DNA of 24,764 bases. Source: a virus. The stretch spans positions 1 through 24,764 of IMG/VR virus record IMGVR_UViG_3300021964_000501, one strand, 5' to 3'. Positions within the stretch are counted from its first letter, which is position 1, and every line of letters begins with the position of its first letter. Under the pieces are notes generated by a model. The model searched no databases. It saw only the letters and a program-made list of their open reading frames with translations, and was not told the origin of the DNA. This document shows, one piece after another, positions 10,769 through 18,223 of this stretch. The position numbers were made by a program, and so were the translations under genes.

Positions 10769-10776
10769 TATAAATA
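10769..10776 (+). promoter_or_regulatory. T4-type late promoter box
   Basis: An exact TATAAATA lies 30 bases before the ATG at 10807. The leader contains a strong CAGGAGAAA ribosome site at about 10792-10800. Confidence 0.7.
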
Positions 10777-12323: not shown

Positions 12324-12590
12324 ATGGATTATTACTTTACACTTAACGGCGAACCTTTTACTGGTAATTCTGTAACTGGTGATGACGCAGTTGCAAAAGG
12401 TCAGGCTATCTTAAAAACTGGTATTGCTGAGGTTGAGTCTTGGAGATTATCTTTAGACGCAGATGAAAATGTAGTTGTATTTGGTGGAACTAAAAATGAA
12501 ACCGATGCTCAAACGCAAAAAGAATCTGAAAGAACTGCAAAAGTAGCTGCTGATAGAGCAAAAGCTGACGCTTTACACGCTACTGAATAA
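12324..12590 (+). CDS. Small hypothetical protein in the fibre block
   Basis: The 88-residue product has two parts. A beta-rich first half (MDYYFTLNGEPFTGNSVTGDDA, partly quoted; VESWRLSLDADENVVVFGG) is followed by a charged Ala/Lys/Glu helix from about residue 58 (ETDAQTQKESERTAKVAADRAK) that could form a coiled coil. It follows the candidate receptor-binding protein by 26 bases, with an AAGGA ribosome site and no promoter box of its own, so the two are probably co-transcribed. A fibre-assembly chaperone or small virion component is possible from position. No family is recognised. Confidence 0.6.
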   Translation: MDYYFTLNGEPFTGNSVTGDDAVAKGQAILKTGIAEVESWRLSLDADENVVVFGGTKNETDAQTQKESERTAKVAADRAKADALHATE

Positions 12591-12626
12591 TTTTAATTAA
12601 TTATTTACATTGCTGATTTTTATATT

Positions 12627-13289
12627 ATGGCGTATGACATTAAAGAGCTCACAAAAGAGATTCATCAAAATGCTGAACGACAAGAGTTTGTAAAAACTCT
12701 AATGAGTGGTACGATTCGTCCTGAATTGTACGCTATCTATTTGTATAATCAATTACAATGTTATTCTGTGCTAGAAAAGTATGGAATGCACAACGATTTG
12801 TTTAGACAAACACCTGGTCTACAAAGAGCAGAAAACATACATAGAGATTACAAAAAGTTATGGCCTGATTTATCAAATGCGCCACAAATAACTCCTAGTA
12901 CAAAACGATATATAGAACACATAGAAACTATACAAGACGATCCTGAAAAACTATACGGACACATTTATGTTAGACATTTAGGTGATCTGTCTGGTGGTCA
13001 AATGATTTCTAAAAAAGTACCTGTAAAAAGTTATTATGATTTTCAAGGTAGAGGACAAGAATATAAAAGAATAGTTAAAGAAATCATCAATGAATATTTA
13101 AACACTTATCAAATTAATGTAATGAATGAAGTAGAGTTTTGTTTTAAATCTGCTACAGAATTATTTATTGAAATGAATGAAATTAATAAACCTTTAGTAT
13201 TAACTAATGAAGTTTTTGAATTTACAACTAATAATAGAGATACTAAAAATGATCCTTTTAAAGGAACAAGTATTGAGGGTAAAGATTAA
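12627..13289 (+). CDS. ho: Heme oxygenase (biliverdin-forming)
   Basis: The 220-residue protein is a canonical helical heme oxygenase. It would open heme to biliverdin IXalpha with release of CO and iron, using reduced ferredoxin or a similar donor. His13 in 'LTKEIHQNAE' corresponds to the proximal heme ligand, and residues 119-125 (GDLSGGQ) form the distal helix with Asp120 and its flexible glycines. The preceding 'YGHIYVRHL' also fits the family. A terminal 'FKSATELFIEMNE' helix is followed by about 35 polar residues and no membrane anchor, so it should be soluble. The stop overlaps the start of the bilin reductase by one base. No Shine-Dalgarno sequence precedes the ATG, and no other in-frame ATG lies upstream before a stop. 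Confidence 0.95.
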   Translation: MAYDIKELTKEIHQNAERQEFVKTLMSGTIRPELYAIYLYNQLQCYSVLEKYGMHNDLFRQTPGLQRAENIHRDYKKLWPDLSNAPQITPSTKRYIEHIETIQDDPEKLYGHIYVRHLGDLSGGQMISKKVPVKSYYDFQGRGQEYKRIVKEIINEYLNTYQINVMNEVEFCFKSATELFIEMNEINKPLVLTNEVFEFTTNNRDTKNDPFKGTSIEGKD

Positions 13290-13969
13290 TGATTTGGGAA
13301 AGATTAATTAAACTACAAAAAGAAATCATAGAAGTTTTAGATAAACATTTAATAGAATACAAAGAACCAGGTATGGATAGATTTAATAATCCTAATTGGA
13401 CAAACCGTACTTGGAAGAATAAAAGTATTAGAAGAGCACACGTAGATGTAGTTGACGCTAGAGAATCAAAAGGATTGTGGATGGCACATATATGTCTATT
13501 TCCTAATACTACAAATGGTGGACCTATTTACGGTTTTGATATTATTGCAGGCAAGAGTAAAGTTACTGGTGCGTTCCACGACTTTTCTCCACTACTTAAA
13601 AAAGAACACGCATTAACAAAATACTTTATAGAAGAAAACAAATGGTTTACACCATCAAAGGTAAGAGAATTGCCTGATTGGGCAAAGAATATCTTTAGTT
13701 CAGGAATGATTGCTGCTGGTAATGTAAGAGAAGAAAAAGAATTAGAACAAATATGTACAATGGGTTTGTCAAACTTAAACGCATATATTGACAAGATAGG
13801 TGATTATGACAACGATTCTACTAAAGAAGATGTCATAAAAGCACAGAATTATTACTGTATTAATCAACAAAAGAATCCCCATACACCGAAAACAATGCAA
13901 TCTTTAGGGTTGCCTGAAGAAGATATTAAGTTGTTTTGTGCTGATAATCTCTTTCCTACCATTAAATAA
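13289..13969 (+). CDS. pcyX: Ferredoxin-dependent bilin reductase, PcyX type
   Basis: The 226-residue protein belongs to the bilin reductase family: 'WMAHICLFPN' then 'PIYGFDIIAGKSKVTGAFHDFSP' is the family core. Aligned with PcyA (Glu76, His88, Asp105), this protein has Asp53 in HVDVV, His67 in MAHIC and Asp84 in GFDII. His67 and Asp84 have the same 17-residue spacing as PcyA. Replacement of the Glu by Asp while keeping the Asp-His pair is the published hallmark of PcyX, a phage enzyme reported to reduce biliverdin by four electrons to phycoerythrobilin. PcyA would give phycocyanobilin. The start overlaps the heme oxygenase stop (TAATG), with GAGGG ten bases upstream, so both enzymes should be made together. 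Product identity is inferred from the residues. Confidence 0.9.
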   Translation: MIWERLIKLQKEIIEVLDKHLIEYKEPGMDRFNNPNWTNRTWKNKSIRRAHVDVVDARESKGLWMAHICLFPNTTNGGPIYGFDIIAGKSKVTGAFHDFSPLLKKEHALTKYFIEENKWFTPSKVRELPDWAKNIFSSGMIAAGNVREEKELEQICTMGLSNLNAYIDKIGDYDNDSTKEDVIKAQNYYCINQQKNPHTPKTMQSLGLPEEDIKLFCADNLFPTIK

Positions 13970-13973
13970 TTCT

Positions 13974-13981
13974 TATAAATA
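13974..13981 (+). promoter_or_regulatory. T4-type late promoter box
   Basis: An exact TATAAATA lies 21 bases before the gp13 start at 14003, with an AGAGGAA ribosome site between. It begins just after the pcyX stop and would drive the neck, stabiliser and gp16 genes. Confidence 0.75.
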
Positions 13982-14002: not shown

Positions 14003-14824
14003 ATGGCTGTACCATCTACACGAGAAACACTAAAGCAATACGCATTAAGAGCATTGGGTAAACCAGTGATTGAAATAAATGCTGATGACGACCAATTAGA
14101 AGATAGAATAGACGAAGCTGTACAATATTTTCAACAGTTTCACTATGACGGTATTAGAAGAACATATCTAAAATACAAATTAACTGCTGAAGATAAAGTC
14201 CGTTTATCAGGTTTAAATGCTGAAAGTGAAACTAAATCAGATTTAAAAGATACTAATGTTTCAACAACTTGGTATGAAGATAAAAATTATCTAGTAGTTC
14301 CAGAGACCATACTTTCTATTATTAATATTTTTCCAATTACAAACAAAGGTAATATGAATCTATTTGATGTTAGATATCAAATGAGATTAAATGATCTATA
14401 TGATTTTTCTTCAACATCAATGGTTAACTATGATGTTGTATTAAGACATTTAGATTTTTTAGATCATATACTAGTAGGTGAAAAACCTATGAGATTTAAT
14501 CAACACGACAATAGACTTTATATTGATATGGATTGGAAAAATGATTTAGAAGAAGACGAGTACCTAGTTATAGAATGTTATAGAAGATTAGATCCAAATA
14601 CTTACACAGATGTTTTTAATGACATTTATTTAAAAAGATATACTACTGCTTTATTTAAAAAACAATGGGGCGCTAACTTATCTAAATTCAATGGAGTTGC
14701 AATGGTTGGTGGAGTAACTTTAAATGGACAACAAATATATTCAGAAGCATTAGCAGATATAGAAAAACTAGAAACAGAAATAAGAAGCACATTTGAATTA
14801 AACCCAGCCTTTATGATCGGATAA
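14003..14824 (+). CDS. 13: Neck protein gp13
   Basis: The 273-residue protein matches the T4-like head-completion (neck) protein gp13. The N-terminus has 'TRETLKQYALRALGKPVIEI' (quoted to 20), then 'DDDQLEDRIDEAVQYF' and 'HYDGIRRTYLKYKLT'. This helix and 'YDGIxRxYLKYK' signature is shared by marine T4-like gp13 proteins. In T4 gp13 acts with gp14 on the portal vertex after DNA packaging and forms the platform for tail joining. T4 gp13 is slightly longer (309 residues). The gene heads the canonical 13-14-15-16 run and has its own late promoter box. Confidence 0.92.
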   Translation: MAVPSTRETLKQYALRALGKPVIEINADDDQLEDRIDEAVQYFQQFHYDGIRRTYLKYKLTAEDKVRLSGLNAESETKSDLKDTNVSTTWYEDKNYLVVPETILSIINIFPITNKGNMNLFDVRYQMRLNDLYDFSSTSMVNYDVVLRHLDFLDHILVGEKPMRFNQHDNRLYIDMDWKNDLEEDEYLVIECYRRLDPNTYTDVFNDIYLKRYTTALFKKQWGANLSKFNGVAMVGGVTLNGQQIYSEALADIEKLETEIRSTFELNPAFMIG

Positions 14825-16974: not shown

Positions 16975-17577
16975 ATGATAGATGTAAGACAAATAGACTT
17001 GGAATTAGCAAAAAGTTTTCTAAAAACCGAAAGAGGTTATAGTGAAGATGAAGTCAGTAGATTGTTAGAAAAAACTACCACAGAGTTAAGAGGTAGTGTC
17101 TTTCTCAAAGATGAAAAAATAACAGTAAAAGGACCTATTTTTGAAAAATTTGTTAAAGGTGTTAATGTATGGTTGGGTGCTTTTGACGGTAATCAATTTG
17201 TAGGAATACATTGGCACGCTATTTCTTGGCACGCTGACTCAGATAAAAACTTTGATGAACACGATATTTTTGACGGTATGATGTTTGCAGAAAATGAAGA
17301 AGCTGCAAGAGCCTTAGATAAAAAATTTTTAGATATGAATAAAAATAATTTTGTAGTAAATTATTCATTTTGTTTTCCAGATGATGAATGGAAATTAGAT
17401 TTCAGAAAAACTTTAGGTTATACAAGTTGGGCTGCTGCTAAGTATCCAATAAAAAAAGGTTATGGTACACTTCATTATTTAAAAAGACTTTCAGGAACTG
17501 AAAGATTGAGTGAAGAAGAATTAAGAAAAAAACAAATTGAAAGATTAAAGAAAGAATTGGAGGATCTAGGTGGTTAA
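16975..17577 (+). CDS. Unknown protein inserted between gp16 and gp17
   Basis: I do not recognise this 200-residue protein. Residues about 65-90 form a strand pair with a His/Trp cluster (VWLGAFDGNQFVGIHWHAIS, then WHAD). The segment 'FRKTLGYTSW' (143-152) resembles the end of an acetyltransferase (GNAT) fold, where 'xxKxGFxxx' is common, so a small acyltransferase-like domain is possible but weak. The last 30 residues (EEELRKKQIERLKKELEDL, partly quoted) are a likely coiled coil. It has its own variant late box. It overlaps the downstream oxygenase by eight bases, suggesting the two are made and perhaps used together. Confidence 0.6.
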   Translation: MIDVRQIDLELAKSFLKTERGYSEDEVSRLLEKTTTELRGSVFLKDEKITVKGPIFEKFVKGVNVWLGAFDGNQFVGIHWHAISWHADSDKNFDEHDIFDGMMFAENEEAARALDKKFLDMNKNNFVVNYSFCFPDDEWKLDFRKTLGYTSWAAAKYPIKKGYGTLHYLKRLSGTERLSEEELRKKQIERLKKELEDLGG

Positions 17578-18223
17578 AGAATATAAATTTCCGAAAGAAA
17601 GTTTTATAGGTGGATGGTATATTAATCCAAACAACTGTGATTCTTTGATAGATTTATTTAAAAAAAATTCTAGCCTGCATAAGGAAGGTGTTATAGGTGG
17701 ACCATACAATATTAATAAAAATAATAAAGACTCTATTGATCTCGGAATACATCCTGATTACACAGACCCAGCGTTTTTAGAATACAAAAAAGCATTAAAA
17801 GAATGTGTTATTGAGTATGAAAAAATATATCCTGAATTAAAAAATTTTAATGCTTATGGAATGCAAGAAGGTGCTAATATACAGTATTATAAACCTGGTG
17901 CAGGTTATTTTGCTGAGCATTGTGAAAGAACATCTAAAAATGAAAATCGTTGTCTTGTATGGATGACATATTTAACAGATACACCTGATGCTGGTACACA
18001 TTTTAAATATCAAAATATTACAACACCTTGTAAAAAAGGTTTGACATTGATTTGGCCAACAGATTTTACACATACTCATAGTGGACAAATATCTAAAACA
18101 CACGAGAAATATATTATTACAGGATGGTTTGGATATGAAAAAAGTTTATGGGAAGATGATCCTAGAGAAATAAAAACAAATACAGATGGACAAAAATTTC
18201 AAACTTTTAAAAAAATATATTAA
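17570..18223 (+). CDS. 2OG-Fe(II) oxygenase
   Basis: The 217-residue protein resembles the phage prolyl-hydroxylase-like 2-oxoglutarate/Fe(II) dioxygenases. The core is 'GAGYFAEHCER' (His117, Glu119), 'RCLVWMTYLTDTPDAGTHF' and 'KKGLTLIWPTDFTHTHSGQI' (His168 or His170), ending 'KYIITGWF'. The metal triad would be H-x-E...H, with Lys180 as a candidate 2OG anchor. Most family members have H-x-D, so the Glu is a variation. The GTG start at 17570 overlaps the previous gene by eight bases and is preceded by GGAGG. The end overlaps the gp17 start by one base. The substrate is unknown; its place beside terminase suggests late expression. Confidence 0.85.
   Translation: MVKEYKFPKESFIGGWYINPNNCDSLIDLFKKNSSLHKEGVIGGPYNINKNNKDSIDLGIHPDYTDPAFLEYKKALKECVIEYEKIYPELKNFNAYGMQEGANIQYYKPGAGYFAEHCERTSKNENRCLVWMTYLTDTPDAGTHFKYQNITTPCKKGLTLIWPTDFTHTHSGQISKTHEKYIITGWFGYEKSLWEDDPREIKTNTDGQKFQTFKKIY

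Follow-up and report, generated by a model that had tools for sequence, protein, structure and literature searches.

The window, a whole 24.8-kb IMG/VR record (IMGVR_UViG_3300021964_000501; 24,764 nt), carries two open reading frames (ORFs), for a heme oxygenase (HO; hemO) and a ferredoxin-dependent bilin reductase (FDBR; pcyX), inside a head/tail gene block (gp13–gp20) that lies entirely on the plus strand (Table 1). The last A of the hemO stop codon TAA is also the A of the pcyX ATG. A preliminary description of this DNA, made from the sequence alone, had the two genes fused by a one-base overlap; the overlap is there and the fusion is not, the pair being separate ORFs coupled by the overlap, with no fusion protein. 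Among relatives, the distance between the genes is −1 in 49 of 71 cases and −4, −23, −62 or 0 in the rest.

Table 1 Features in and around the hemO–pcyX pair
Feature	Position	Strand	Remarks
TATAAATA, putative late promoter motif before tail gene	10769..10776	+	45/46 contigs; likely start of the transcript reaching hemO–pcyX
Tail/host-recognition-type protein, 496 aa	10807..12297	+	Weak beta-propeller-like model; conserved upstream partner
88-aa protein, probably tail-associated accessory	12324..12590	+	Directly 5′ of hemO in 59/67 contigs
Spacer before hemO	12591..12626	+	Recurrent TTTACATYGCTGGTTTTATATT next to ATG
hemO, heme oxygenase, 220 aa	12627..13289	+	Profile and solved-HO matches; proximal His13; GDLSGG distal motif
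pcyX, ferredoxin-dependent bilin reductase, PcyX class, 226 aa	13289..13969	+	H51, D53, H67, D84, H97, D98
TATAAATA, putative T4-type late promoter motif in the pcyX–gp13 interval	13974..13981	+	Present in 79/79 contigs
gp13-type neck protein, PHROG 'head-tail adaptor Ad2'	14003..14824	+	Near-invariant 3′ neighbour
2OG-Fe(II) oxygenase between gp16 and gp17	17570..18223	+	AlaS occupies this stretch in another sublineage

The position of the pair within the virion genes, with tail genes on its 5′ side and gp13 on its 3′ side, had already been described and proved to be conserved among relatives: gp13 follows pcyX in 79 of the 80 contigs with a readable next gene. Close gp13 relatives that lack the cassette exist (among L172–L212); the insert is therefore optional and, where present, occupies a single fixed slot. 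This slot lies at the edge of the pelagimyophage region named the host recognition cluster (PMC7029224). At all 103 loci with enough sequence, the upstream tail gene has an HO gene downstream, and HO–PcyX pairs are also found without that tail gene (Mosig, L168–L171). We rejected the tail protein as a virion-linked bilin-binding partner; because the cassette occurs without its gene and its moderate-confidence model shows no more than a resemblance to beta-propellers, we read it as a putative host-recognition protein.

Several relatives depart from this arrangement. Some carry a tandem duplication of the 496-aa tail gene together with the 88-aa gene (L123–L149). In L128 (11437–12513) and eight similar loci, a 358-aa ORF without a match in Pfam or PHROG lies between pcyX and gp13; its start resembles a signal peptide, and by eye the protein looks like a porin. 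A class I methyltransferase gene directly follows HO in L026 (231–875), L019, L023, L027 and L095 (8451–8923), standing between HO and PcyX in the loci where PcyX is visible.

A published kind of cassette in a probable pelagimyophage

The T4-like virion block is closest to those of Pelagibacter myophages. Identity to Pelagibacter phage Mosig (isolate EXVC030M, MT647606) is 78% for TerL and 77% for gp13, and is lower to HTVC008M and Methylophilales phages. The window is thus probably a fragment of a T4-like pelagimyophage, with SAR11-type bacteria as the likely hosts, judging from Mosig, the nearest isolate, which infects Pelagibacter. This lends indirect support to a host without phycobilisomes, which the preliminary description had considered.

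The hemO–pcyX cassette of pelagimyophages has been published, Mosig included (Nat Commun 2024, PMC11480375; PMC7892664), so that the earlier statement that PcyX was described from uncultured ocean phages needs correction: the published record covers the cassette, its origin in pelagiphages and an isolate. The cassette itself is ordinary for this phage group. Window and published cassette share the two genes, their order, the slot directly before gp13 and the phage group, and the encoded HO and PcyX are 63% and 73% identical, respectively, to those of Mosig. They differ upstream, where the window has the beta-propeller-like tail gene and the 88-aa gene and Mosig has 2OG oxygenases, and in the gp16–gp17 slot, which in the window lacks the AlaS gene of some relatives. 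As far as we checked, what is new is the promoter pattern, the link to a ferredoxin, the presence of four heme-synthesis genes together with the cassette and a clade with altered catalytic residues, all described below.

The encoded enzymes belong to the HO and PcyX families

Both proteins matched their own families far beyond chance, as the preliminary description had anticipated. The hemO product matches PF01126 over the catalytic domain (E = 2.5e-22) and solved HO structures with E values down to 5.9e-15, and it retains the proximal His13, Glu17 and the G119-D120-x-S122-G123 motif of the distal helix, in agreement with the His and GDLSGG helix first read from the sequence. Conversion of heme to biliverdin IXα by an enzyme of the HemO/HO-1 type is a well-supported prediction from these relatives.

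The reductase matches PF05996 (E = 4.6e-17), and its best solved match is PcyX_EBK42635 (PDB 5owg; full length, E = 6.9e-117), compared with 4e-12 for cyanobacterial PcyA; against the NCBIfam PcyA model it scores 83.6 bits, far under the cut-off of 206. It is about three quarters identical to 5owg, with which it shares the catalytic residues, and one loop is two residues shorter. D53 aligns with Asp55 of 5owg, at the position of PcyA Glu76, and H67 and D84 align with PcyA His88 and Asp105. Asp55 is specific to PcyX: characterized PcyX yields phycoerythrobilin (PEB), and the enzyme of the freshwater phage CB_2, which lacks this Asp, makes PCB (PMC11480375). In a tree of 44 proteins that included PcyA, PebS and PcyX, as the preliminary description had proposed, the window protein falls inside the FDBR family and within the PcyX set together with Mosig (98/100). 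Outward from this set lie phage-like contigs from metagenome bins (MAGs), FDBRs of acetic acid bacteria, PcyA and the distant PebS, some of them on long branches; the clade is separate from cyanobacterial and cyanophage PcyA, and P-SSM2 PebS and the second-type FDBR of Synechococcus WH7803 are far outside, again on long branches. Profile, structure match, tree and residues thus agree with the original reading of the gene as pcyX. Given the 5owg match, the PcyX-specific Asp at D53 and the tree placement, PEB rather than PCB is the expected product. Relatives of the reductase turned up on 90 stretches of viral contigs.

The pathway would begin with HO, which opens heme to give biliverdin IXα, CO and Fe2+, and PcyX would then add four electrons by way of 15,16-dihydrobiliverdin to form PEB, with a ferredoxin as the electron donor. 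This enzymology is well supported, by analogy with characterized relatives.

Other systems with an FDBR are similar in part. Cyanophages with pcyA or pebS are T4-like too, fall into the same group at family level (Kyanoviridae) and use the same enzyme family; however, their PcyA is 22–30% identical and belongs to another clade, and the genes occupy another genome position in phages of cyanobacterial hosts. The hemO–pcyA–alaS cassettes of CB_2 and Bradyrhizobium ORS278 likewise combine HO with an FDBR, and AlaS is present in some relatives of the window. More distant PcyX-like genes (53–57% identical) occur in L395, L396 and L397 near Hsp20-like, ClpS-like and HO genes; L395 is a 335-kb contig in a Marinimicrobia MAG with a phage terminase match, probably from a large phage that was binned together with bacterial sequence. 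In L441, a Nonlabens xiamenensis contig, the FDBR is nearly identical in the tree to that of cyanophage P-TIM40, which may reflect contamination or phage sequence.

Late promoter motifs flank the pair

The window has nine copies of TATAAATA, the motif of the T4 late promoter core, always on the plus strand, where 4.8 occurrences are expected over both strands together. Across contigs it stands upstream of gp13 (79 of 79) and of the tail gene (45 of 46) and is absent before the 88-aa gene (0 of 59), HO (0 of 67) and PcyX (0 of 79). Because the motif precedes gp13 and the tail gene and never HO or PcyX, the pair is probably transcribed late in infection. On the simplest reading, a single late transcript would start at the motif before the tail gene, run through the 88-aa gene, hemO and pcyX, and end where the putative gp13 promoter begins. 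Among the genes of Mosig is one for a putative late sigma factor. No Shine–Dalgarno-like motif precedes hemO in the 59 contigs with the 88-aa gene upstream. Sigma-70 promoters and terminators predicted around the cassette were discarded, their numbers being near those from shuffled sequence.

Purifying selection and an altered sister clade

In the clade around the window, codon models give ω values of 0.17 for HO, 0.11 for PcyX, 0.14 for gp13 and 0.23 for the tail gene. The pair is thus kept as protein under purifying selection, and the constraint on PcyX is no weaker than that on HO. In a sister clade of 13 contigs (L132, L133, L143, L145, L218–L229; for example, 3300000219_000013 and 3300006340_000012), both ORFs are open and in the same slot, and catalytic residues have changed: in HO, His13 is Tyr and GDxSGG is RDxxEG; in PcyX, D53 is Glu, with an additional D84V in six contigs. 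Here ω rises to 0.83 for HO and 0.77 for PcyX, compared with 0.33 for gp13. Fisher tests for a nonsynonymous excess of the cassette over gp13 gave P values of 0.014, 0.002, 0.066 and 0.43 and were significant in two of the four pairs. It looks as though both genes have been relaxed jointly, as expected for a single shared pathway, although they may instead have diverged rapidly towards a new role.

Open frames without HO His13 and GDxSGG, with D53E and in part D84V, together with the near-invariant position in the virion block, would also fit a binding or structural role of the proteins in or near the virion that needs no catalysis. The raised ω of the altered clade speaks for relaxed constraint over a second job, and with it against a retained non-enzymatic function there, even with the cassette–gp13 comparison significant in only half of the pairs; we regard such a role as very unlikely.

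Ferredoxin and heme-synthesis genes in relatives

The preliminary description had also suggested looking for ferredoxins and bilin-binding proteins. The 24.8-kb window encodes neither a ferredoxin nor AlaS, and ferredoxins were found in three relatives. Mosig_00003 is an adrenodoxin-type 2Fe-2S ferredoxin, the sole match among 50,697 phage records. A ferredoxin 45% identical to it, detected by direct tblastn and adjoining a polymerase-sized ORF as in Mosig, is encoded by the 177-kb relative 3300008952_000005 (hereafter G001), and a profile search detected another in a 67-kb relative (G002). Ferredoxin and PcyX thus occur together in three well-covered records, and neither was matched in phages HTVC008M and Melnitz. 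A Fer2 family search of 16 records returned no ferredoxin, a weak negative, as those of G001 and G002 were found otherwise. Similar adrenodoxin-type ferredoxins occur on many viral contigs, not only on those known to carry the cassette, and the link between ferredoxin and cassette is therefore suggestive only. Relatives of the window phage would in this way bring their own electron donor for PcyX. As for bilin-binding partners, no GAF or phycobilisome family matched in 10 PcyX-bearing records, again a weak negative, because the same search tool missed the G001 ferredoxin.

G001 also encodes AlaS and a hemF–hemB–hemC run alongside an intact HO–PcyX pair. AlaS and hemF–hemB–hemC recur on separate contigs (L270–L277), with AlaS observed in a single sublineage. 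Coproporphyrinogen oxidase, porphobilinogen deaminase and GMP reductase genes have been noted in PMP-MAVG-4, a 'deep ecotype' phage that recruits mainly below 200 m (Zaragoza-Solas et al., PMC7029224). G001 shares genes of these three types, the last being GMP reductase-type, and is probably kin of PMP-MAVG-4 on the strength of these markers. In the literature checked, we found no link between the PMP-MAVG-4 heme-synthesis genes and a bilin cassette. An annotated ferrochelatase in Mosig (Mosig_00059, L082:16904–17674) has no Pfam match and resembles only ferrochelatase-named PHROG families. It is also similar to an oxygenase-like ORF in L204, so that the annotation is doubtful and we left this gene out of the heme-synthesis set.

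What the phage may gain

PEB is a light-harvesting chromophore, and a role in light use has been proposed for cyanophage pebS and pcyA. In engineered cells, PEB made by PcyX is built into cyanobacterial phycobilisomes (PMC13197396), and in the window phage it could likewise load a light-harvesting or light-sensing protein. However, Pelagibacter, the host of the nearest isolate, is not a phycobilisome host, the GAF and phycobilisome searches in relatives gave no match (the weak negative above), and G001, with its intact pair, shares markers with a deep-recruiting phage of which it is probably kin. We consider a light role improbable.

Alternatively, iron supply may be the purpose, an idea also raised previously (PMC11480375). 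HO would release Fe2+ from the heme of the host, for use by Fe(II)/2OG oxygenases, ribonucleotide reductase and further iron-dependent enzymes or for the virion, and PcyX would only clear biliverdin so that HO keeps turning; we hold this explanation to be an appreciable possibility, though less likely than not. It would suit the many annotated iron enzymes of Mosig, among them a number of 2OG-Fe(II) oxygenases encoded immediately 5′ of its cassette, the 2OG-Fe(II) oxygenase of the window between gp16 and gp17, and a locus (L126:8759–9887) in which HO is followed by a 2OG-Fe(II) oxygenase in the place of PcyX and no PcyX is present. Yet selection holds PcyX slightly more tightly than HO, and one relative, G001, would boost heme synthesis, itself a consumer of iron. 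Iron held in tail fibres through HxH motifs was rejected, the window tail proteins showing no excess of the motif (one in the 1,554-residue fibre and none in the others).

On whether the reduced bilin itself, rather than iron alone, is what selection maintains, we are nearly evenly balanced and lean towards the bilin. The heme-synthesis genes of G001 favour it, since a phage that synthesizes heme and then degrades it gains no iron overall, and the constraint on PcyX fits it. Against it, the heme genes might serve heme proteins instead, and the locus with HO alone (L126) runs counter to its prediction. The empty search for bilin-binding families, a weak negative, the lack of ferredoxin and AlaS in the window and the single sublineage with AlaS also count against it. 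Taken as a whole, the reading that best explains the locus, and one that we hold to be fairly probable, is a pelagimyophage hemO–pcyX cassette that would convert heme to PEB, expressed in a late unit and perhaps maintained for the bilin.

Why phages of hosts without phycobilisomes carry a pathway for a pink pigment is an acknowledged question (PMC11480375). It becomes testable in specifics through the putative late operon, the ferredoxin and heme genes that these phages encode and the altered clade, namely the time of expression, the electron donor, rescue by iron or by bilin, and the habitat of the altered copies. More speculatively, and on balance doubtfully, some pelagimyophages may encode the greater part of a private route from glycine to phycobilin, with the last two enzymes made late with the virion genes and PEB put to a use other than light harvesting. 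This would mean PEB with an undescribed use in infected cells, in a host without phycobilisomes and possibly in the dark ocean. G001 holds the whole set: 5-ALA synthase, HemB, HemC, HemF, heme oxygenase, PcyX and a phage ferredoxin.
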